Shown: piece by piece, positions 13,778 through 22,190 of the stretch
Layout of the letters: the number at the start of each line of letters is the position of its first letter
Numbering within the stretch: the first letter of the stretch is position 1
Source: a virus
DNA: 26,074 nucleotides
Virus record (IMG/VR): IMGVR_UViG_3300047319_000501
Span: 1-26,074 of that record
Direction: 5' to 3' (one strand)
Notes under the pieces: model-generated
The model's input: the letters and a program-made list of their open reading frames with translations, nothing else
Databases searched by the model: none
What the model was told of the DNA's origin: nothing
Position numbers and translations under genes: made by a program

Positions 13778-14389
13778 GTGCTGATGCTCGTCAGCGGAGC
13801 CACCGTCGTCGTGAACGAACACCGAGGACACCCCAACCTCGGACTGCTCGCGGTGCCGAAGGCGGGCAACGCTCCCGAGCATTACCAGGGCTGGCGGTGG
13901 GCGGCAGACAACGGTGCCTTCGACGGCTTCAACGAGTCGCTGTTCCTGCGGATGCTGGACAAACTCAGTGACGTGCCCGGCTGCCTGTTCCTTGCCTGCC
14001 CCGACGTCGTCGCCGACGCTGCCGCGACGCTGTGCCTGTTCGAGGAGTGGGCGCCCCGGCTCGCTGACTGGCCGCTCGCGCTAGTAGCCCAGGACGGGCT
14101 CACGAGCGACATGGTTCCGTGGGATCAGATCTCCTGCCTGTTCGTCGGCGGCAGCACCACCTGGAAACTCGGCGCCGAAGCTGCTGCACTGGTTGATGAG
14201 GCGAACACTCGCGGCAAATGGACGCATATGGGGCGGGTCAATACGTTCCGCCGCATCGACTACGCGCTCGCGCTCAACTGCGACTCCATCGACGGCACGA
14301 ACTGGTCGCGCTACTCACGGCTCAGGATTCCGGGCGGACTACGCCGCCTAGAGAACGAACACCTACTACTACGGGAGGTCCTGCATTGA
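13778..14389 (+). CDS. dpdA: DpdA-like 7-deazaguanine DNA transglycosylase
   Basis: A 203-residue protein resembling the short phage DpdA branch of the tRNA-guanine transglycosylase (TGT) fold. TGT-like landmarks appear in order: 'AADNGAF' (residues 42-48, D44 parallel to the D-S-G-G-F base-binding motif), 'CPDVV' (74-78), 'VAQDG' (103-107), 'FVGGSTTWK' (122-130), 'HMGRVN' (150-155) and 'CDSIDGTNWSR' (168-178), where D172 lies where TGT carries its nucleophile before the PTR motif. The C-terminal zinc site of tRNA enzymes is missing, as expected for a DNA enzyme. It would swap guanine in DNA for a 7-deazaguanine such as preQ0 or preQ1. The next gene encodes a matching precursor transporter, which strengthens the call. 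Start GTG 13778; ATG 13784 is possible. Confidence 0.72.
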   Translation: MLMLVSGATVVVNEHRGHPNLGLLAVPKAGNAPEHYQGWRWAADNGAFDGFNESLFLRMLDKLSDVPGCLFLACPDVVADAAATLCLFEEWAPRLADWPLALVAQDGLTSDMVPWDQISCLFVGGSTTWKLGAEAAALVDEANTRGKWTHMGRVNTFRRIDYALALNCDSIDGTNWSRYSRLRIPGGLRRLENEHLLLREVLH

Positions 14390-14934
14390 AGCGTCTTGCA
14401 CTCTGGCTCGCTGTCGCGTTCGTTGCCCTCGCCATCGTCGCGAACTGGCTCGCCTCGAAGTACCTCATCACCGTGCCACTTACGGACTACGTTGTCCCAG
14501 CCGGCGTGCTCTGTATCGGGGTTGCTCTCGTCATCCGTGACTGGCTGCAACAACTGGTCGGGTTCCGCAAATCCGTGCTGCTCATCCCTATCGCGGGAGG
14601 ACTGTCCTATGTCACAGCCGTCGGGTTCGGCTGGACGTCGCTGCAGAAGATCGCTGTTGCTTCGGTTGTCGCGTTCCTCGTCTCCGAGACGGTCGAGGCT
14701 GTGCTATTCCAGCCGCTCAGAAACCGTTCGCTCAGCCTGGGTGTGGCGCTATCGGCCACGGTAGGGAACCTGATCGACACTTGGATCTTCCTCACCCTCG
14801 CGTTCGGCACGTCGGTTGTGCTGATACCGCCGTACATGTGGGGCACGGTCATCGGCAAGTCGGAGATGATCGCGATCGGCGTCCTACTCACAGTGACACG
14901 TCGTGTGGTGCTGCCCGTTAGGACGGCAGTATGA
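14386..14934 (+). CDS. yhhQ: VUT/YhhQ-family queuosine-precursor transporter
   Basis: A 182-residue integral membrane protein. The TTG at 14386 overlaps the DpdA-like stop (TTGA) and has GGGAGG upstream; no other start gives the full first helix without entering the previous gene. About six hydrophobic helices are visible. Family signals: 'VANWLASKYLITVP' near residues 18-31 (the conserved first-helix Asn), 'VPAGVLCIGVALVIRDWLQQLVG' and 'SATVGNLIDTWIFLTLAF', the Asp/Phe-rich fifth helix of VUT proteins. These importers bring in preQ0/preQ1. With the adjacent transglycosylase this suggests a two-gene salvage route for DNA modification, since no preQ0 synthesis genes lie in the window. Confidence 0.82.
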   Translation: MKRLALWLAVAFVALAIVANWLASKYLITVPLTDYVVPAGVLCIGVALVIRDWLQQLVGFRKSVLLIPIAGGLSYVTAVGFGWTSLQKIAVASVVAFLVSETVEAVLFQPLRNRSLSLGVALSATVGNLIDTWIFLTLAFGTSVVLIPPYMWGTVIGKSEMIAIGVLLTVTRRVVLPVRTAV

Positions 14935-15983
14935 GCCCGATCCTGCAACTCCAACGCCGCATGATGGAACTCGGCCGTGTCCGCCTCGGCGAGAAGGGCC
15001 CGAAGGGCGAGCCGCGCAAACGCGACACGTTCAGGTTCACTACCGCCAGCGAGGCGCTCGCCCTAGCCGTTGCCGACAAGTACGGAGGAGAAGCCGAGCC
15101 GTGGCCGGACGCGCCCGACGGCGAGGGCTACTGGCAGGTCGCCACCGACGCCAACGAGCTCGCGATCATCCTGCCGCCCGTCTACTCCGATGCGGACGGT
15201 ACGTCGACGACGACCTGGAGCCAGTGGTTTGAGCTGTGGTCGGGCGGCGGATGCCAGCGTCGCTGCGACGGCGAAACCGAAATGCTCTCCGGGCAGCTGT
15301 GCGTCTGCAAGCAACTCGTCGACATCGAAGGCGAGGACGCCCGCGAATGCCAGGTCACCACGCGCGTCTCGTTCATGCTCCCAGACATCCCCGGATTGGG
15401 CGTGTGGCGCCTCGACTCGCACGGCTGGAACGCCGCCACCGAACTCCCCGGCACGCTCGAGCTCCTCGTCCGCGCCGCGAGCGAGCACGCCTTCATCGAG
15501 GCCGTCCTGCGGATCGAGCAGCGCGTGAAGAAGCAGCCGGGCCAGCCGACCAAGCGGTTCGTCGTGCCGGTCATCGACCTGCCGTCCGTGACGTTGAAGC
15601 AGCTTGCCAGTGGCGATGTGCCGCTGGTGCTGAACGCGCCGAGGCAGTCGCCGCCGAAGCCGCCGCTTCCCTCCTCGGCGTCTCTCCCTACGGTGGCTGA
15701 CCTCGGCGTGCACCGCGACGCGGACGTGATCCCGTTCGGCGATCCGCCGGAGATTGCCATCAAGCGCGGATGGGCAGGCGACGATGGCATCGAGGCGACT
15801 AACGAAACGCTCACGCCCGAATCGCTTCGCTCGTCGCTGCTCGAGGAAGAACTGCTAGCTGCCTGCGGTCGGCTAGGCGTCGACCTCGACGACGTACGCA
15901 AAGCCATAGACGACAACCGCGGCGACGACCAATGGCTGAAACGCCAGGTTGAGCGGGCGCGGGAGAACCTGGCGCTCAGGTAG
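14931..15983 (+). CDS. Recombination-directionality-factor-like protein (phiC31 gp3-type)
   Basis: A 350-residue protein from ATG 14931 (ATGA overlap). The N-terminal part ('LQRRMMELGRVRLGEKG...PRKRDTFRFTTASEALALAVADKYGGEAEPW', residues 7-58) and the Cys cluster 'GGCQRRCDGE......LCVC' (C108, C112, C124, C126) match proteins annotated as recombination directionality factor-like in actinophages. A Pro-rich linker follows at about 238-255, then an acidic helical C-terminus. In phiC31 this family turns a serine integrase from integration to excision. No integrase is in the window, and relatives occur in lytic phages, so the role may differ. The zinc site suggests nucleic-acid binding. Confidence 0.7.
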   Translation: MSPILQLQRRMMELGRVRLGEKGPKGEPRKRDTFRFTTASEALALAVADKYGGEAEPWPDAPDGEGYWQVATDANELAIILPPVYSDADGTSTTTWSQWFELWSGGGCQRRCDGETEMLSGQLCVCKQLVDIEGEDARECQVTTRVSFMLPDIPGLGVWRLDSHGWNAATELPGTLELLVRAASEHAFIEAVLRIEQRVKKQPGQPTKRFVVPVIDLPSVTLKQLASGDVPLVLNAPRQSPPKPPLPSSASLPTVADLGVHRDADVIPFGDPPEIAIKRGWAGDDGIEATNETLTPESLRSSLLEEELLAACGRLGVDLDDVRKAIDDNRGDDQWLKRQVERARENLALR

Positions 15984-15997
15984 GCCGAGGAACTCGT

Positions 15998-16561
15998 GTG
16001 AACGAGTCTGTCGATCCCGGCCCGATCGGCACGCGGCGAGCGGGGCTGCTGCAAGGGCGCCTCGAGGATGCGAAAGACCGCCGCATCGCCGAACTGGAGT
16101 CTGCTTGCGCCTTTGAGCATCAGGGTCGCGTTAATCTAGGAGAGCGCGTCGCCGAGTTGGAGAAGGACGTAACGCGTCTGGAAGCACAACTAGACGCCTC
16201 TGTTTTGGAGGACGCCTTGGACTCGGAGGCACGACTGGCCGGCCGTGTCCACAAACTGGAGGCTGAGCGGCAGGAGTGGGCGGATAAACGCCAGGCTCTT
16301 GAAGTTCGCATCGGTACAAAGGACAGACGCATCGCCGAGTTGGAGACGTGTATTGCCCGAGACCGTGCCTGGTTCAAAATGCGCATGGCCGAGGAGGGGG
16401 CTGAACAGGACAGGCTGCGGGCAATCCTCGATGAGGTCGAGCAGTTCCTGTTCGAGGTAGACAAGCCCGGCACCTACGACGACGACACCGAGCGCAGCGA
16501 CGACATCGCCGAACTGCGCAGCCGTGTCCGTGCTGCCCTGGCTGGCGAGGAGAAGCCGTGA
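15998..16561 (+). CDS. Long coiled-coil protein
   Basis: A 187-residue protein from GTG 15998. Nearly the whole chain is heptad-like helix. The segment 'KDRRIAELE' occurs twice (near residues 26-34 and 108-116) within similar surroundings, so the coil probably arose by internal duplication. It ends in an acidic region and a short helix ('DIAELRSRVRAAL'). No enzymatic motif. It may be a scaffold or a host-factor binder, but I recognise no family. Confidence 0.65.
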   Translation: MNESVDPGPIGTRRAGLLQGRLEDAKDRRIAELESACAFEHQGRVNLGERVAELEKDVTRLEAQLDASVLEDALDSEARLAGRVHKLEAERQEWADKRQALEVRIGTKDRRIAELETCIARDRAWFKMRMAEEGAEQDRLRAILDEVEQFLFEVDKPGTYDDDTERSDDIAELRSRVRAALAGEEKP

Positions 16562-16659
16562 AGCCACTCACATTCCTCGGCGCGCCCGTCAAGGGTTGCA
16601 CCTGCCCAATCTGCACATTGGCGCGAGCAAACGGCGGCAAGTATCCGGTGAAGCCGTGA
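16558..16659 (+). CDS. 33-residue cysteine micro-protein
   Basis: GTG 16558 (GTGA overlap) to TGA 16657-16659. The core is 'KGCTCPICTLARANGGKY', three cysteines in a C-x-C-x2-C pattern, which could hold a zinc ion in a dimer or with a partner. Its stop overlaps the next GTG start. The tight overlaps at both ends support a real gene. Confidence 0.5.
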   Translation: MKPLTFLGAPVKGCTCPICTLARANGGKYPVKP

Positions 16660-17021
16660 CCGCCGGGGCTGCACGCGCCGACCGCATTCGGGAGCAGCTA
16701 GGCGCGTCCGAGACCGGACGCGATTACACCTTGGATGACGTACTGCTTCCTCCGGGCTCGGTGGTGCTGACCGCCGACGAGCACGCCGCCCTGATCCGTG
16801 CGGGCGATGTGCTCGCCACTCGGCTAGACGAAATACCCTGCACCGAGAGTAGCCTTCAGGTAAGTCGGCTGGCGGTGCGGGAGTGGCTAGCCGTCGCCCA
16901 CCCGAACGGGACAGGGCACGGAGTCCACGAGTTGGTCGAGAAAGGACGTCCTCTCGCCGGCGACGACGTAACCGACAGGGCCCACGAGTTCCTAGACGAG
17001 TGGGACGAGGCGGCGGAGTGA
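16656..17021 (+). CDS. Acidic helical protein of unknown function
   Basis: A 121-residue protein. GTG 16656 is chosen because it overlaps the preceding stop. An N-terminal helix ('AARADRIREQLG') is followed by 'YTLDDVLLPPGSVVLTADEHAALIRAGDVLATRLDEIP', the 'vvLtadE...L..a' helix pattern common in small phage proteins, then a mixed C-terminal half ending 'AHEFLDEWDEAAE'. No catalytic motif recognised. Confidence 0.55.
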   Translation: MTAGAARADRIREQLGASETGRDYTLDDVLLPPGSVVLTADEHAALIRAGDVLATRLDEIPCTESSLQVSRLAVREWLAVAHPNGTGHGVHELVEKGRPLAGDDVTDRAHEFLDEWDEAAE

Positions 17022-17051
17022 CGTCGCGTGAGGGGGAATGGGCCACGCCTG

Positions 17052-17119
17052 CCCCGTCCCTCTCACGGGGCGCCAGTTTTAAAGCGATGACACTCCGCTC
17101 TCCTCAGGGCTGGCGCCCC
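17052..17119 (+). promoter_or_regulatory. Two mutually exclusive RNA hairpins upstream of a secreted enzyme gene
   Basis: A perfect 10-base-pair inverted repeat (GGGGCGCCAG 17067-17076 / CTGGCGCCCC 17110-17119) surrounds a loop with TTTTAAA. A second hairpin (CCCCGT 17052-17057 / ACGGGG 17065-17070) uses the same G run, so only one can form at a time. The element lies in the 151-base stretch between the preceding gene and the likely start of the transglycosylase-like gene; I see no convincing gene there. An attenuator-like role is possible but unproven. Confidence 0.45.
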
Positions 17120-17172
17120 ACCTCAACCCGCCGTGACCACGCCGTCGGATCCCTACTCGAAATGGAGGCGTC

Positions 17173-17631
17173 CTGCGCTACCTCATCGTCCTACTCGCCG
17201 CATGCGTGCTCGCCGGTGCCGCCAGCGCCGACTACCGCGCGCCCCATCCGCCCGCGTTCTACCGCAACACGCTCGACGCCCAGGCCCGCTACGTGGCGGC
17301 GCACGGCGGCATCCGGTCCCACCGTTACGGCGACGCGAGCCCGGAGATGAAACAGCTCGTCCGCGCGTTGATCCGCGAGACGTTTAAGCCCGCCGGCTGG
17401 GCCGCCGTGCAGCACGCGCTCTGCTACTCGAGACGCGAGTCAGGCTGGAACCCGGCGGCGGACTCACCATCCGACGACCACGGCGCGTTCCAGGTTCACC
17501 GCGCCTCATATCACCCGTTCGACTGGGCCCGTGTCGCGAGCGACCCCGCCTACTCGGTATGGGTGGGCTGGGTAGTGTCGAGCCACGGCACAGACTGGTC
17601 GCCATGGAACGGCGGAACGAGGCCCTGCTGA
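17173..17631 (+). CDS. Secreted lytic-transglycosylase-like protein
   Basis: The lysozyme-like core is 'ALCYSRRESGWNPAADSPSDDHGAFQVHRASYHPFDW', with the catalytic-type Glu in 'RESGWNP' (E89 if counted from 17173) and a 'GAFQVH' turn matching the usual G-l-f-Q element. Reading upstream in frame gives a good signal peptide ('RYLIVLLAACVLAGAASA' then DY), but no ATG, GTG or TTG exists between the in-frame stop at 17134-17136 and GTG 17206. A CTG at 17173 lies 4 bases after GGAGG, so I place the start there with doubt; GTG 17206 would cut the signal peptide in half. A 'LAAC' motif could mean a lipoprotein. It is far from the lysis genes, among early genes. Confidence 0.62.
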   Translation: MRYLIVLLAACVLAGAASADYRAPHPPAFYRNTLDAQARYVAAHGGIRSHRYGDASPEMKQLVRALIRETFKPAGWAAVQHALCYSRRESGWNPAADSPSDDHGAFQVHRASYHPFDWARVASDPAYSVWVGWVVSSHGTDWSPWNGGTRPC

Positions 17632-17825
17632 TGGGCCGCCCTCACCCGAACGGCTGGACATGCGCCCGCGGCCACTGGGTCCCCCCCGGCGTCACTCACT
17701 GCACGAACTGCCGGTGGCGCACCGAGCGCGACGTGTGTGATTGCGGCGGGTTGAAGTGGAAAACCTCTGTGCGGTGCCGGGATTGCGACACGGACCGGAA
17801 GCGGGGTATAGCGTGTGGCTTCTAG
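17631..17825 (+). CDS. Small zinc-ribbon protein
   Basis: A 64-residue protein from ATG 17631, which shares a base with the preceding stop; an in-frame ATG at 17604 would add 9 residues. It has many metal ligands: 'CARGHWVPPGVTHCTNCRWR' near residues 10-29 and 'CDCGGLKWKTSVRCRDC' near 36-52, suggesting two zinc knuckles or a rubredoxin-like ribbon. The chain is basic and probably binds nucleic acid. No specific family recognised. Confidence 0.6.
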   Translation: MGRPHPNGWTCARGHWVPPGVTHCTNCRWRTERDVCDCGGLKWKTSVRCRDCDTDRKRGIACGF

Positions 17826-17881
17826 CGACGCTCGGGCTGCTGGTCGCCCTATTCCTCCTGATGTGGCACACCAGCCGGTGA
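17813..17881 (+). CDS. Single-helix membrane micropeptide (22 residues)
   Basis: GTG 17813 to TGA 17879-17881. The product is nearly all hydrophobic ('WLLATLGLLVALFLLMW') with a polar end (HTSR). It overlaps the upstream gene by 13 bases, and its stop overlaps the GTG of the endonuclease gene at 17878. That exact GTGA junction supports it being the true gene between the two. Function unknown. Confidence 0.52.
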   Translation: MWLLATLGLLVALFLLMWHTSR

Positions 17882-18168
17882 AGCAGACGCGGAAAAACCA
17901 GCACGCTGCCATGCGCCGCCGCTGGCGCACCGACGGCACGTACGAGCGACTGCTACTCGCCCAGCACGGACGCTGCGGCATCTGCGATATCGAATACGAC
18001 AGGCCCATAGTCCAGCGGTTCGACATCGACCACCACCACCGCAAGGGAGTCGACCACCAGCCACGCGGGCTTCTCTGCCGCGGCTGCAACCTTCGGCTAG
18101 GACGGGAGAGCGACTCTATATGGCTTAGAAACGCCGCTAACTACCTTGAGCGGGAGATCCCGTTCTAA
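17878..18168 (+). CDS. Endonuclease VII-like (HNH) nuclease
   Basis: A 96-residue protein. GTG 17878 overlaps the micropeptide stop; an upstream in-frame GTG at 17815 would add 21 residues of poor composition overlapping that gene. The fold markers are 'YERLLLAQHGRCGICD' (C33-x2-C36), 'FDIDHHHRKG' (D51, H52-H54) and 'RGLLCRGCNLRLG' (C67-x2-C70, N71): the recombination endonuclease VII pattern with a structural zinc and a beta-beta-alpha metal active site. T4 endonuclease VII resolves branched DNA; a similar role in replication or packaging is likely here. Confidence 0.85.
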   Translation: MKQTRKNQHAAMRRRWRTDGTYERLLLAQHGRCGICDIEYDRPIVQRFDIDHHHRKGVDHQPRGLLCRGCNLRLGRESDSIWLRNAANYLEREIPF

Positions 18169-18242
18169 TGCCGCCCGTCTACTACATCGGCGTCGTCTAC
18201 CTCGCTCTGTTCGCCCTCGCCCTACTCGTCAAGGAGACCTAA
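18168..18242 (+). CDS. Single-helix membrane micropeptide (24 residues)
   Basis: ATG 18168 to TAA 18240-18242, joined to its neighbours at both ends by overlapping stop and start (TAATG). The product has a Tyr-containing hydrophobic helix ('VYYIGVVYLALFALALLV') and a polar end (KET). Its AAGGAG sequence near the end serves as the ribosome site for the next gene. The exact fit between two genes supports it; function unknown. Confidence 0.55.
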   Translation: MPPVYYIGVVYLALFALALLVKET

Positions 18243-18520
18243 TGGCCGAAGCAACCCGGCACCACCGCGAACGACTACTCGACACCTGGCAACAAGCTAT
18301 CGCCGACATTCACCAGTCCGCCGCAGACCGCGACGCCGCCCACAAACGAGCCACCGACGCCGGGGCCGAACTCCACGCCGACCACGGGCTCAAGCTCGCC
18401 GCGACGTTCGACGCCGCCACCGCCGCCGCCCTACAGGTGCTACGGACGGGTGGAGACCCGAACGCCGTCGAGCTCGACTGGGCGATCGTCCCGCCGCCGG
18501 TGCTCAAGGCTGTCGGGTGA
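18242..18520 (+). CDS. Helical protein of unknown function
   Basis: A 92-residue protein from ATG 18242 with AAGGAG upstream. It is Ala/His-rich and helical ('RERLLDTWQQAIADIHQSAADRDAAHKRATDAGAELHADHGLKLAATFDAATAAALQVL') with a short C-terminal segment 'ELDWAIVPPPVL'. It lies directly before the DNA methyltransferase gene (GTGA overlap). No motif ties it to modification. Confidence 0.55.
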   Translation: MAEATRHHRERLLDTWQQAIADIHQSAADRDAAHKRATDAGAELHADHGLKLAATFDAATAAALQVLRTGGDPNAVELDWAIVPPPVLKAVG

Positions 18521-19302
18521 AACCACGCCTCCTCGACCTGTTCTGCGGCGCCGGCGGCGCGGCGATGGGCTACCACCGCGCCGGGTTCGACGTGGTCGGC
18601 GTCGATCTAGTTCACCAGCCAAACTACCCGTTCGAGTTCCACCAGGCCGACGCGCTGGATGTGCTCGAGTCTATCCGCGACGGCGGCCATTGGCTCTACG
18701 AGATCGGCGACCCGGCAGCGATCCACGCCAGTCCACCATGCCAAGCCTACGGCGCAGCCACCAACAGGCTCGTAACCAGGAACGCCCCACGCTTGATCGA
18801 ATCGACGCGCGACGCGATCCATTCATACGGCGGCATTCCCTACGTGGTCGAGAACGTCGTCGGCGCACCACTTGTTAACCCAATCATCCTCTGCGGCTCA
18901 TCGTTCGGGCTCGCCGTAAAACGACACCGGCTGTTCGAGTGCGCCCCGTTCTATTTCCTAGCCCCGCCGTGCCAGCATCCGACCGAGCTTAAGTATCCGA
19001 CGCATGCACGTAAGGACAAGGCGCAACTATCGCCGTTCGTCCATATCTACGGCACCGGCGGTGGCGCCGGGAAAGACATTAACCTATGGCGCTGGGCTAT
19101 GGACGTGCCGTGGATGCAAACCAAGGCCGAGATCGCCGAGGCGATCCCGCCGGCATACACCGAACTGATCGGCCACCAACTGATGCGGCACCTTCAAAGC
19201 TCCGGCCCCCAAGGCCGCCTCCATCAATGGGACGTGACCTTAGAGCACCATCGGACTGATGGTAGGTCGCGAACGGCGGTACAGGGGCCGGGTATCTCGT
19301 GA
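18517..19302 (+). CDS. DNA (cytosine-5)-methyltransferase
   Basis: A 261-residue enzyme from GTG 18517. Conserved motifs in order: I 'LDLFCGAGG' (residues 6-14, SAM binding), IV 'ASPPCQAYG' (71-79, catalytic C75), VI 'VVENVVG' (E112), VIII 'KRHRLFE' (135-141) and X-like 'AEAIPPAYTELIGHQL' (207-222). The target-recognition part between VIII and X is short (about 65 residues), typical of phage enzymes. It methylates cytosine at C5. Methyl marks could themselves block host restriction, or act as the first step of a longer cytosine modification, since a glycosyltransferase of the type used in such pathways is encoded about 1.9 kb downstream. Confidence 0.9.
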   Translation: MKPRLLDLFCGAGGAAMGYHRAGFDVVGVDLVHQPNYPFEFHQADALDVLESIRDGGHWLYEIGDPAAIHASPPCQAYGAATNRLVTRNAPRLIESTRDAIHSYGGIPYVVENVVGAPLVNPIILCGSSFGLAVKRHRLFECAPFYFLAPPCQHPTELKYPTHARKDKAQLSPFVHIYGTGGGAGKDINLWRWAMDVPWMQTKAEIAEAIPPAYTELIGHQLMRHLQSSGPQGRLHQWDVTLEHHRTDGRSRTAVQGPGIS

Positions 19303-19511
19303 CGATCGAACGCATCGACCGGCTCGAGCTCTCCGTCGACGAACGGCTCGCCGAACTGCGCCAGGAAATGCTCGCCTTCCCCGAACCATGGACGCTCGAG
19401 GCCGTCGCCGTGTTCATGCGCGCCGCCTACGGCCGCGGCTACATCGACGCGCTCATCGACAAGGGTGAGTTGTGCCGCGAGCACGGGTACAAGCTGCCGG
19501 GGCAGGCGTAG
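19299..19511 (+). CDS. Small helical protein of unknown function
   Basis: A 70-residue protein from GTG 19299 (GTGA overlap with the methyltransferase). It has two helices ('IDRLELSVDERLAELRQEML' and 'TLEAVAVFMRAAYGRGYIDALIDKGEL') joined by a 'FPEPW' turn, and ends 'CREHGYKLPGQA'. The 'AAYGRGYIDAL' segment is typical of small phage helical proteins. It may be a partner of the methyltransferase or an unrelated early protein. Confidence 0.55.
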   Translation: MTIERIDRLELSVDERLAELRQEMLAFPEPWTLEAVAVFMRAAYGRGYIDALIDKGELCREHGYKLPGQA

Positions 19512-19793
19512 ATGCAGCCCTACCGCGGCCACGGCCGCTACGGGCCGCTCGCCAACCACGCCATCCTGCTCGAGCTCATCACGCCCGAAATCAAAAAGGT
19601 CGGCGTAGGCAAATTCGCCGAACGCTGCCACATCGGCCCACGGCAACTCACCCGCGTCCTCGCCGGCGAGGGACGCACCACCCACCACACCGCCGACCGG
19701 CTGCTGACATTGGGGCTCGGGCGGCCCGACTTGCTTGATCTGGTGTGCCCGCTACTCCACCCGATAGAAACACCCACCACAAAGGAGGAGTAA
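19512..19793 (+). CDS. Helix-turn-helix DNA-binding protein
   Basis: A 93-residue protein from the ATG directly after the previous stop. Residues about 20-68 match a Cro/XRE-like helix-turn-helix: 'LITPEIKKVGVGKFAERCHIGPRQLTRVLAGEGRTTHHTADRLLTLGLG'. 'FAERCHIGPRQLTRVL' forms the turn and recognition helix, and 'TADRLLTLGLG' the closing helix common in phage versions. It probably controls early transcription. The next gene overlaps its stop (TAATG). Confidence 0.66.
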   Translation: MQPYRGHGRYGPLANHAILLELITPEIKKVGVGKFAERCHIGPRQLTRVLAGEGRTTHHTADRLLTLGLGRPDLLDLVCPLLHPIETPTTKEE

Positions 19794-20344
19794 TGAGAGT
19801 AACTGAGATGCGCCCCGACGCCGAGGTCGTCGGGCGGGCCCTAGCGGCCCTCGAACTCGCCGGGGAAGAATCCCTAGCCAAGGAACTCCGCGCCGTTCAA
19901 CGCCGCCTCGCGATCTCGGAGCCCCAGGTCGTCGAAGTAGCGCCGCTATTCCCGAAGGCAGCCACGATCCCGGACGGCTGGGCCTGGGACGACGTCAACG
20001 ACTCCGGCGCGTTCGTCGGCGATCTCTGGGGGATCCGGCTCCGCCGAGGCGAGCCGATCCTGCTTCAGCGCGGGCACGTACTCTACGTCCGCCAAGGTGA
20101 CCTATTCGACGAGCGCGACCGCGGCTACTACAAGCGGATCAGCCGCCAGGCCGGCCAGACCGTCCTTGTCGTCTTTGGCGCCCGCGGGAAACGCGAGGGC
20201 TATATCAGTTTCGACGGCGGCCGCGAACAGCCGCTCGCGATTGTCTCGAGCCCAGGCGAGATCGCCGAATGGATCGTCGGCTGGCTCCGGCGCGCCCAGC
20301 GCGACCCGCTCGCCGACTGGCTTAACGCCGAGGAGGGACTGTGA
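19793..20344 (+). CDS. Protein of unknown function, mixed alpha/beta
   Basis: A 184-residue protein from ATG 19793 with AAAGGAGGAG upstream. It has an N-terminal helical part ('DAEVVGRALAALELAGEESLAKELRAVQRRLA'), then a beta-rich domain ('DLWGIRLRRGEPILLQRGHVLYVRQGD', 'TVLVVFGARGKREGYISFDGG') and a C-terminal helix ('PGEIAEWIVGWLRRAQRDPL'). I checked it for the His-x-Asp iron site of a TET/JBP dioxygenase because of its neighbours, and found none. No family recognised. Confidence 0.55.
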   Translation: MRVTEMRPDAEVVGRALAALELAGEESLAKELRAVQRRLAISEPQVVEVAPLFPKAATIPDGWAWDDVNDSGAFVGDLWGIRLRRGEPILLQRGHVLYVRQGDLFDERDRGYYKRISRQAGQTVLVVFGARGKREGYISFDGGREQPLAIVSSPGEIAEWIVGWLRRAQRDPLADWLNAEEGL

Positions 20345-20607
20345 TCGACCTAAAGGAAGGCGGCTCCGGCTACGTCTACGCGGTCCACGCGCCAGCCGTA
20401 AGGATGGTCAAGATCGGCTGGTCGATGAAACCCCGACGACGACTCCTTCAGGATATACGCCCGCTATGTCCAGTCCCGCTCGTACTCATCGGAATTACTC
20501 CCGGATCGAAGGGAGCAGAGTCGTATTGGCACCAGCTCTGCTCCGACCTAAGAGTACGGAACGAATGGTTCCAAGATACGGCAATCGACCGGCTTAACTT
20601 CATCTAG
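20341..20607 (+). CDS. GIY-YIG-type (T5orf172/MUG113-like) protein
   Basis: An 88-residue protein from GTG 20341 (GTGA overlap). It shows the compact GIY-YIG relative pattern: 'GYVYAV' (residues 10-15) for the first motif, 'VKIGWS' (23-28) for the second, 'RRR' at 32-34, then 'AESYWHQL' (59-66, with E60 and H64) and 'RNEWF' (73-77), the hallmark end of the T5orf172 and MUG113 families. Members may nick DNA or simply bind it. It lies directly before the ParB-like gene within the modification cluster. Confidence 0.72.
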   Translation: MIDLKEGGSGYVYAVHAPAVRMVKIGWSMKPRRRLLQDIRPLCPVPLVLIGITPGSKGAESYWHQLCSDLRVRNEWFQDTAIDRLNFI

Positions 20608-21243
20608 ATGGAACTCGACATCGACTTCGGGACCGCGCCTCTATCCGCCTGGGCCGGTCCCGAATATCTCCGCGAGTTCCTCGTCCCGATATCCGACCTC
20701 CGGGTCGTCCCGAGCGACTACGGCGACCCCGACGTCGCAATCGAAGGGCTCCGCCGACACGGACAGGTACGACCCGTCCTCCTCGACGACGACCGGGTCG
20801 TAGTCTCCCGCGGGCATCTTCTCGAGGCGGCGCTCGCGCTCGGCTGGACACATATCGCCGCGCGCCTCGCCGCGGGCGAAGACGTCCGGGAATCAGTCGA
20901 CCAAATGTCACTGATCGACGTAGCCGGTAACGACGTCGAGATGATCAAGACGCTCGCCGCGAAGAACGGAGGCTCACGGGAGGCGTCCGACGACGAGATC
21001 GACGCTATCGACGAGGCGACGCGCGATGCCGCTACCGAATGGGTCGGGCTACCCGTGTTCGTTCCCACCACTACCCCCTGGAAGCTCGTAATCAGCTGCG
21101 AGACCGAAGCCGACCGCGACGCCGCACTAGACGCCCTCGGTATCGCCACAATTCATAAAGGGACGCGAGGGACGCTCTCCGTCTGGTTCCCCGAGCGCGC
21201 GCGGGAGGACCTCTCGTCGCTCCGCTTCGAGACCTCCACGTGA
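20608..21243 (+). CDS. ParB-like domain protein
   Basis: A 211-residue protein from the ATG directly after the previous stop. The N-terminal half matches the ParB/sulfiredoxin-like fold: 'FLVPISDLRVVPSDYGDPDVAIEGLRRHGQVRPVLLDDDRVVVSRGHLLEAALALGWTHIAARLA' (residues about 24-88), with the 'VPIsdL', 'G.v.PvLl' and 'sRGHlleAalaLGWthi' elements. The C-terminal half is mixed and unassigned. ParB-like proteins are commonly linked to phage DNA-modification genes, where they may guide modification or cut DNA. Here it is followed by the glycosyltransferase gene with a GTGA overlap, so the two are coexpressed. Confidence 0.72.
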   Translation: MELDIDFGTAPLSAWAGPEYLREFLVPISDLRVVPSDYGDPDVAIEGLRRHGQVRPVLLDDDRVVVSRGHLLEAALALGWTHIAARLAAGEDVRESVDQMSLIDVAGNDVEMIKTLAAKNGGSREASDDEIDAIDEATRDAATEWVGLPVFVPTTTPWKLVISCETEADRDAALDALGIATIHKGTRGTLSVWFPERAREDLSSLRFETST

Positions 21244-22190
21244 GCTCGCGCTACCCCATCTACGTGATCTCGAAAGGGCGCGCCGACTGCTGTCTCACCG
21301 CCAAGTTCCTACTCCGCGATCGAGTCCCGTTCGCGCTCGTCGTCGAACCCCAGGAAGTCGCCGCCTACGCTCAACACCTACCCGGCGCTGTCCTGCTCGA
21401 GCTCCCGTTCTCGAACCTCGGGCTCGGATCGACCCCCGCCCGTAACTACTGCTGGGAACACGCGATCGAGAACGGGTACCGCCGCCACTGGATCCTCGAC
21501 GACAACATCGGGCAGATCCGACGACTCTACGGCGGTAAACGCATCCCTTGCTCGAGCGGTCCCGCGTTCGCCGCTACCGAAGATTTCGTCGACCGCTACG
21601 ACAACGTCGCGATCGGTGGCCTTAACTACCAGATGTTCGTAACGCCGACCAGCCCGCCGTACCGCACGAACGTCCACGTCTACTCCACGCTCCTAATCGA
21701 CAACGCTATCCCCCACCGCTGGCGGAGACAGTACAACGAAGACACCGACCTCTGCCTCCAGGTACTCGCGGACGGGCTCGCGACCGTACTCGTCAACCTG
21801 TTCATGATCGACAAAAAAACCACTATGACCATGAAGGGCGGCAACAGCGACGCCCTCTACCAAGGCGACGGACGACTAAAGATGGCCCGGTCACTCGAAC
21901 AAGCCTGGCCCGGGATCGTCCGCGTCGACTACCGCTACGGACGCCCCCAACACGTCGTCGACTGGGGCAAGTTCAAAACCCCGCTTCGGCTCCGATCCGA
22001 CGTCGACCTCGCCGCGCTCCCGAGGGTAGACGAGTACGGGCTAACGCTCGTCGAGAAGACGCCCGTCCGAAGTCGACAGCTACGGGAGCTGCTCGAGCGG
22101 TACCGGGCGAATGGTCTAGACTCCCCGTCGGGAGCAGCATCATCGCCAAGCAGAGGACGGACTCCTCGGAAGATTGGCGGTACAAGATGA
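21240..22190 (+). CDS. TET-associated-type DNA glycosyltransferase (TAGT-like)
   Basis: A 316-residue GT-A-fold protein from GTG 21240. The N-terminus 'YPIYVISKGR' (residues 5-14), 'FALVVEPQEVAAY' (31-43), 'LGLGSTPARNYCWEHAI' (60-76), 'HWILDDNIGQIRRL' (83-96, D87-D88 as the metal-binding DxD-like pair) and 'YNEDTDLCLQVL' (165-176, E167/D168) are the hallmarks of the TET/JBP-associated glycosyltransferase family. These enzymes add a sugar to oxidised bases, such as 5-hydroxymethylcytosine, in phage DNA. A C5-methyltransferase lies upstream, but no TET/JBP dioxygenase is found in this window. The C-terminal 30 residues are Ser/Arg/Gly-rich. Confidence 0.78.
   Translation: MSSRYPIYVISKGRADCCLTAKFLLRDRVPFALVVEPQEVAAYAQHLPGAVLLELPFSNLGLGSTPARNYCWEHAIENGYRRHWILDDNIGQIRRLYGGKRIPCSSGPAFAATEDFVDRYDNVAIGGLNYQMFVTPTSPPYRTNVHVYSTLLIDNAIPHRWRRQYNEDTDLCLQVLADGLATVLVNLFMIDKKTTMTMKGGNSDALYQGDGRLKMARSLEQAWPGIVRVDYRYGRPQHVVDWGKFKTPLRLRSDVDLAALPRVDEYGLTLVEKTPVRSRQLRELLERYRANGLDSPSGAASSPSRGRTPRKIGGTR

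Follow-up and report, generated by a model that had tools for sequence, protein, structure and literature searches.

Analysis of a viral DNA sequence of 26,074 bases suggests that a single run of its genes encodes not two DNA-modification pathways but three devices independent of one another, a reading to which we give a probability of about 0.6. The sequence, hereafter the window, is the whole of IMG/VR record IMGVR_UViG_3300047319_000501, a linear fragment with a G+C content of ~66%. The first candidate device comprises a compact DpdA-like transglycosylase and a putative 7-deazapurine importer, the second is a stand-alone C5-cytosine methylase, and the third is a TET-associated glycosyltransferase (TAGT) together with a ParB-like protein. 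A first-pass annotation had proposed two independent modification routes, the one altering guanine by means of DpdA and a transporter, the other altering cytosine by means of the methylase and the glycosyltransferase. The guanine route stands, while the cytosine route resolves into a methylase and a separate ParB–TAGT pair. The genes concerned are:

13778..14389, + strand: compact DpdA-like transglycosylase of 203 amino acids (phrog_15826, E 3.9e-46)
14386..14934, + strand: Vut_1 / YhhQ-like 7-deazapurine importer (PF02592, 40.3 bits, cut-off 27.2)
18517..19302, + strand: compact C5-cytosine DNA methyltransferase (PF00145, 22.9 bits, cut-off 22; phrog_363, E 2.8e-36)
20608..21243, + strand: ParB-like protein with a C-terminal 'EWxGMPxF...SxWxP' domain (phrog_8071, 3.9e-5)
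21240..22190, + strand: TET-associated glycosyltransferase, TAGT (PF20691, E 8.3e-45, 153.7 bits, cut-off 27.5)

The four genes on which the annotation was based all lie on the + strand as intact open frames; the interval 13778-22190 runs exactly from the start of DpdA to the stop of the glycosyltransferase. Neither gene set shows decay, the frames being open and the compared DpdA and TAGT residues conserved. The ParB-like gene (20608-21243) was absent from that annotation; it overlaps the start of the TAGT gene by 4 bases.

The glycosyltransferase and its ParB-like partner

The residues D87 D88 N89, N166 and D168 T169 of the TAGT (the DDN and NEDTD motifs) are invariant over 11 sequences including that of the window. 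A TAGT profile compared with PDB sequences gave a best E value of 0.067. We surveyed 84 viral TAGT loci, comprising five and a further 79 drawn from the best 80 of at least 579 confirmed relatives. A gene encoding the C-terminal domain of the ParB-like protein (the GMPEF domain) lies directly upstream of TAGT in 69 of the 84, and in another five the domain is fused to TAGT itself, so that partner or fusion is present in 74. In the remaining 10 the partner is found elsewhere (seven loci) or has been cut off by the end of the contig (three). The upstream partner also matches a local profile of the ParB N-domain in 54 of the 69 loci. Bacterial genomes present a similar picture; of 29 TAGT loci fetched, 28 were used, with the partner adjacent in 18, fused in three and otherwise placed in seven. 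ParB–TAGT pairs occur in the bacterial isolates Erwinia sp. OLFS4 and Pantoea stewartii (L203 and L204; L numbers are our labels for loci), presumably as prophages.

Taken alone, the ParB-like protein of the window has no ParB_N match in Pfam, but such a match is found in three of five TAGT partners scanned, one of them above the cut-off, and a profile of 35 partner sequences matches the ParB structure 6sdk (3e-14). Residues 22-108 of a model of the window protein match ParB 7bnr with Z 9.7 over 86 residues, in a model that is weak as a whole (pLDDT 74, pTM 0.46) and whose C-terminal domain is defined by sequence alone. That C-terminal domain in the partners matches the N-terminal extension that long TAGTs have in Vibrio, Tenacibaculum and Aeromonas phages (hhalign E 2.8e-10, with 0.24 for a reversed control). 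The comparison was made with two shallow alignments, and among those phages the local domain profile recognized the fusion only in Aeh1. The fusion of this domain to TAGT provides evidence that the ParB-like protein and the glycosyltransferase work together.

The location of ParB beside DNA-modifying enzymes is a recurrent theme. In a ParB search, which found 268 records in all, 16 of the 30 matches listed are annotated as DNA methylases, and in Wheelbite a ParB gene adjoins that of a PAPS reductase. DpdB, a ParB-superfamily protein, is described as a regular companion of DpdA (PMC6392294). We considered ParB as a general companion of the compact DpdA and rejected it, since seven of 80 DpdA loci match the local ParB profile and none of the 80 matches that of the GMPEF domain. 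No report of a ParB–TAGT link, or of dual modification, turned up in the open-access literature searched.

In 12 of the 84 loci a sugar gene of epimerase/dehydratase type is no more than 100 bases away from TAGT (PF01370 in the copy that was scanned, L038:5999-6883) and probably supplies the sugar nucleotide, as would be expected for a working glycosyltransferase. Tandem TAGT-family genes are seen in L052, L070, L072, L073 and L087.

The methylase and the search for an acceptor-making enzyme

The motifs DLFCGAGG, PPCQ and ENV are present in the methylase, and we take them to have their customary roles. Its Pfam score by itself is marginal, but the family is settled by relatives in 308 phage records, mostly of phages of Mycobacterium (172) and Streptomyces (52). 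The best match in a PDB search (E 0.0012) was to a cytosine methyltransferase over 77 residues. The only organism name common to these 308 records and a set of 24 TAGT records is that of the seven Vibrio records.

If the methylase and TAGT formed one cytosine route, as had been proposed, some enzyme should stand between them. We searched whole records for 37 of the 84 TAGT loci (and 50 of the 80 DpdA loci discussed below); these were chosen by length rather than randomly, with numerous fragments among them. TET (PF12851) was found neither in the 26 kb window fragment nor in any of the 37 records. The search does work, since in a set of 15 records, of which 12 carry TAGT and four are common to the set of 37, it located TET in one, that of Nonlabens phage P12024L. 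A thymidylate-synthase-type hydroxymethylase (PF00303) was likewise found neither in the window nor in the 37 records; three large phages, PTm1, Kuja and Aeh1, gave scores above the cut-off. A C5 methylase of any kind is present in three of the 37, in two of them above the family cut-off. Local profiles, each built from a single protein, were used for TET and for the methylase; the former matched at one of the 84 viral loci (L102) and one of the 28 bacterial loci (L211, in a Winogradskyella genome). Vibrio phages 1.076.O and 1.124.O, each of ~48 kb, contain TAGT with neither TET nor thymidylate synthase found. The nearest relative of the window TAGT (L002, 68% identity) keeps the ParB–TAGT pair, and no C5 methylase, TET or compact DpdA was found in its 29 kb.

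Because no oxidizing or hydroxymethylating enzyme of the families searched was found in the window or in the 37 relatives, the neighbouring methylase is probably not the supplier of the TAGT acceptor. On these counts we have rejected the methylase and TAGT as a single pathway, with Vibrio phage 1.124.O (below) as the exception; the usual partner of TAGT is the ParB-like protein. A TET gene in the missing part of the genome would change this verdict.

The compact DpdA and its putative importer

The 203-residue DpdA protein has no Pfam match. A tblastn search returned phage proteins annotated as 'DpdA-like tRNA-guanine transglycosylase', including ReqiPine5 gp03 (48%) and Sonali gp81. An AF2 model built on 58 sequences has pLDDT 94.1 and pTM 0.90, and when this was compared with the PDB using Foldseek, tRNA-guanine transglycosylase (TGT) occupied 44 of the top 50 rows, the best match being 3s1g (E 1.1e-5). 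Comparison of the model with TGT by VIA gave Z 14.7 over 196 residues, but other barrels were tied, such as pyruvate kinase with Z 15.3, so that structure alone is insufficient to single out TGT. A DpdA profile searched against PDB sequences gave one match, with E 0.17, and a scan of viral contigs with the single DpdA sequence confirmed no relative. The positions D44, D76, Q105, G124, G125 and D172 are without variation across the 58 sequences; judged by the order of the motifs rather than by a residue-by-residue alignment, they may correspond to the TGT catalytic residues. Canonical tRNA-guanine transglycosylases contain a zinc-binding cysteine cluster, CxCxxC, and there is none in the 203-residue sequence. 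The protein has a TGT-type fold, and we infer that it could insert a deazaguanine into DNA.

The gene that follows most likely starts at TTG 14386, overlapping the end of DpdA by 4 bases, and relatives of this Vut_1 protein adjoin DpdA in phages ReqiPine5 and Aoka. We examined the best 80 of 175 viral loci with a compact DpdA. In 55 of them a Vut_1 gene on the same strand is no more than 500 bases away. QueC, detected with a local profile built from one protein, is present in 10 of the 25 loci lacking Vut_1 and in none of the 55 that have it (Fisher p 2e-6, phylogeny being ignored). When the loci are clustered at 90% identity the distribution is 35 with Vut_1, eight with QueC, none with both and 11 with neither out of 54 (Fisher p 7e-5, again ignoring phylogeny). 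This is a correlation inside one DpdA subfamily. The exclusive pairing with either importer or QueC suggests that the compact DpdA uses 7-deazapurines, the pairing alone being silent on whether DNA is the target, and suggests too that phages can salvage these compounds. According to Hutinet et al. 2019 (PMC6884629), YhhQ is not correlated with any phage group. The guanine route of the first-pass annotation is sustained as a salvage-type 7-deazaguanine route, and it is better supported than it was from reading the sequence alone.

Arthrobacter phage Sonali (L014) has two transglycosylase types in one phage, with the compact gp81 and, ~2.4 kb away, a ParB and a full-size DpdA accompanied by QueC, QueD and QueE. 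At another locus (L106), DpdA and Vut_1 are found with two methylases of the window type, and no TAGT was found.

The guanine module and TAGT across viral records

The compact DpdA is absent from all 84 TAGT loci, and from all 38 TAGT records searched whole for it, in a search that gave no match anywhere. In the other direction, TAGT was found in one of the 50 DpdA records searched whole. This is L120, a record of 94.6 kb with 74% G+C, in which Vut_1, DpdA, two ParB-like genes and a remote TAGT lie within ~6 kb; neither TET nor a methylase of the window type was found in the 94.6 kb. Its TAGT was found by PF20691, having been missed by a local TAGT profile with a strict limit. The tandem ParB-like genes of L120 precede the remote TAGT (L120:12635-14938), 3.4 kb from DpdA. 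The combination of guanine module and ParB–TAGT is consequently known from two unlike records, the window and L120.

Among RefSeq phages, any of three DNA glucosyltransferases is listed for 111 of 5388, or ~2% (PMC13216743). One in 50 is close to this background, and so there is no sign that TAGT is enriched in DpdA records; taken with the two zero counts, it indicates that TAGT does not generally need the compact DpdA. The records lend no support to a link between the guanine module and TAGT, though one may exist in individual phages such as this. A survey of related genomes for both gene sets, which had been suggested alongside the first-pass annotation, gave little co-occurrence, be it of DpdA and TAGT in either direction or of the methylase (three of 37) with TAGT.

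A model of three devices

We propose that the first device would take in preQ0, or a related 7-deazapurine, through the YhhQ-like importer and that DpdA would then exchange it for guanine in the phage DNA. The methylase, of a type common in actinophages, would act by itself as the second device, placing 5-methylcytosine at some motif. In the third, the overlapping ParB-like and TAGT genes would provide a pair whose ParB-fold member probably directs the glycosyltransferase to DNA. We liken this targeting role to that of DpdB, itself of the ParB superfamily, with DpdA, and to the ParB domains fused to phage DNA methylases. A broader version of the model is tentative, and on balance doubtful. This would have ParB–TAGT as a widespread two-protein device for DNA glycosylation that dispenses with TET or a hydroxymethylase, in which a nucleotide-binding clamp of ParB fold loads or guides the glycosyltransferase, and the sugar is placed on an acceptor made by no known hydroxymethylating enzyme. 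With salvaged deazaguanine and 5-methylcytosine in addition, three base alterations might be possible in this phage.

A number of observations weigh against the three-device model. No terminase, portal or capsid gene was recognized among the window genes scanned, which were part of the gene set; for this reason the genome is probably incomplete, and what is missing may include a gene for TET or a hydroxymethylase. One nearly gapless gene run contains both the methylase and TAGT. TET and TAGT are paired in three loci (P12024L, L102 and L211). Among six annotated TAGT phages, a window-type methylase (45% identity) is encoded by Vibrio phage 1.124.O (L008; MG592499.1:18017-18649), ~17 kb from its TAGT, and by none of the other five. 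On the guanine side, neither Vut_1 nor QueC was found in 15 of the 80 DpdA loci, several of which are cut short, and this group includes L103-L105, whose DpdA is closest to that of the window (54% identity, among the best 80 of 175). Lastly, Mycobacterium phage Orion, which has DpdA only, contained no modified guanine according to Hutinet et al. 2019 (PMC6884629), a result that the authors ascribe there to the lack of preQ0 synthesis in phage and host.

Four alternatives were weighed. The compact DpdA might act on RNA, or serve in repair or removal, instead of inserting deazaguanine into phage DNA. This is what one might suppose from Sonali, where gp81 exists besides a full-size DpdA with QueC, QueD and QueE, and from the fact that the second of two DpdA-only phages tested, Salmonella phage 7-11, is described in that paper as having trace modification only (PMC6884629). 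The exclusive association with importer or QueC suggests the use of 7-deazapurines, a link that does not of itself identify DNA as the target, and we consider this alternative unlikely.

The classic scheme of cytosine hypermodification, operating beside the guanine route, would have the methylase make 5-methylcytosine, a TET dioxygenase with its gene in the missing part oxidize this to 5-hydroxymethylcytosine, and TAGT add the sugar. PF20691 is indeed named for its association with TET, the genes for TET, TAGT and a methyltransferase stand in tandem in P12024L, and both the shared gene run and the fragmentary state of the window would be in keeping with it. Vibrio phage 1.124.O shows that TAGT and a methylase of the window type can share a genome, yet no oxidizing or hydroxymethylating enzyme was found there to join them. 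Moreover TET is missing from all 37 TAGT records and a C5 methylase from all but three, and in the clade of the window TAGT the usual neighbour is ParB and not TET. We regard the scheme as rather unlikely. Near its TAGT, Vibrio phage 1.124.O has in addition a gene annotated as an N6-adenine methylase.

It is less probable still that TAGT is no DNA enzyme here, and that it attaches sugar to the cell surface or to a protein of phage or host. In its favour, none of the searches for an acceptor-making enzyme of the chosen families succeeded, and in 52 of the 84 loci there is a terminase-type cluster downstream of TAGT at a median distance of 877 bases, so that the ParB–TAGT pair is often among packaging genes. 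Yet the family members of T2 and T6 act on DNA, as stated in two reports (PMC13216743, PMC13390438), and the partner has a ParB fold. In the window itself the pair sits among early-type genes, unlike those loci with the terminase-type cluster downstream.

Crosstalk, in which TAGT would glycosylate the deazaguanine inserted by DpdA so that both modules produced one hypermodified guanine, had been raised in the first-pass annotation, and L120 with its module, ParB-like genes and TAGT but no TET or window-type methylase speaks in its favour; the absence of the compact DpdA from TAGT loci and records, and a frequency of TAGT in DpdA records at the background level, make it very improbable and have led us to reject it as a general rule.

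Gene layout of the window

Genes for a head-tail adaptor, the major tail protein and the tape measure come first in the window, followed by the + strand region of early type, a label that we base on the neighbouring exonuclease, recombination directionality factor-like protein, ParB and AAA ATPase. Between 13587 and 23536 each gene either overlaps the next slightly or is separated from it by a short gap, of 184 bases at most for the reading frames chosen. When bases 1-25000 were compared with a phage collection at the DNA level, the only match was to the methylase stretch, in Mycobacterium phage PattyP. Two further genes of the run provide context:

14931..15983, + strand: Gp3-like recombination directionality factor, not a modification gene (PF18897, 1.6e-38)
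20341..20607, + strand: small T5orf172 (GIY-YIG-type) protein (PF10544, 19.9 bits, cut-off 20; phrog_4284, 6.6e-9)

The first overlaps the transporter gene by 4 bases, and suggests a temperate phage whose integrase is encoded outside the fragment. The second is directly upstream of the ParB–TAGT pair.

Significance and comparison with known systems

The conserved ParB partner, together with the fusion of its C-terminal domain, offers a concrete two-component system for expression and assay. If all the devices work, one phage would alter the chemistry of both G and C and possibly of a third acceptor, and restriction, Cas targeting and the sequencing of such phages would all be affected. Solitary TAGTs with no assigned acceptor are counted in 288 of 753 phage genomes in one report (PMC13216743), and Hutinet et al. 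2019 (PMC6884629) leave unresolved what singleton DpdA proteins do in phages. The acceptor of the TAGT sugar and the role of DpdA in phages are now testable questions.

How does the window compare with systems already described? The phage DpdA systems set out in Hutinet et al. 2019 (PMC6884629) share with it an enzyme of TGT fold and a gene for the supply of preQ0; the window differs in having the compact 203-residue form and an adjacent importer, with no synthesis genes found in the fragment. A DpdA-like protein adjoining a Vut_1-like transporter is found, as in the window, in Rhodococcus phage ReqiPine5 (gp03/gp04) and Arthrobacter phage Aoka (gp40/gp38). In those phages the transporter is upstream, unlike the window, and neither TAGT nor methylase is annotated in the stretches shown.

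The TET–TAGT cluster of Nonlabens phage P12024L has the TAGT family in common with the window. There TET and a methyltransferase are adjacent, whereas the window has ParB beside TAGT and no TET was found. The beta-glucosyl-HMC-alpha-glucosyltransferase of T2 and T6 and the TAGT of Aeromonas phage Aeh1 are also PF20691 proteins. The T2 and T6 enzymes are described as adding a second glucose to glucosylated hydroxymethylcytosine (PMC13216743, PMC13390438). T2 and T6 themselves make hydroxymethylcytosine (PMC13216743), in contrast to the window and its 37 relatives with their lack of a PF00303 match. Aeh1, too, has a strong PF00303 gene, unlike the window; a further report (PMC8056088) lists the modified base of Aeh1 as unknown. 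Long TAGTs such as that of Aeh1 carry a domain like the C-terminal end of the ParB partner in the window. Finally, the bacterial DpdA–DpdB system (PMC6392294) and the ParB–DpdA pair gp86-gp87 of Sonali both place a ParB-superfamily partner beside a base-modifying enzyme. The window does the same, but its ParB is coupled to the glycosyltransferase and not to DpdA.

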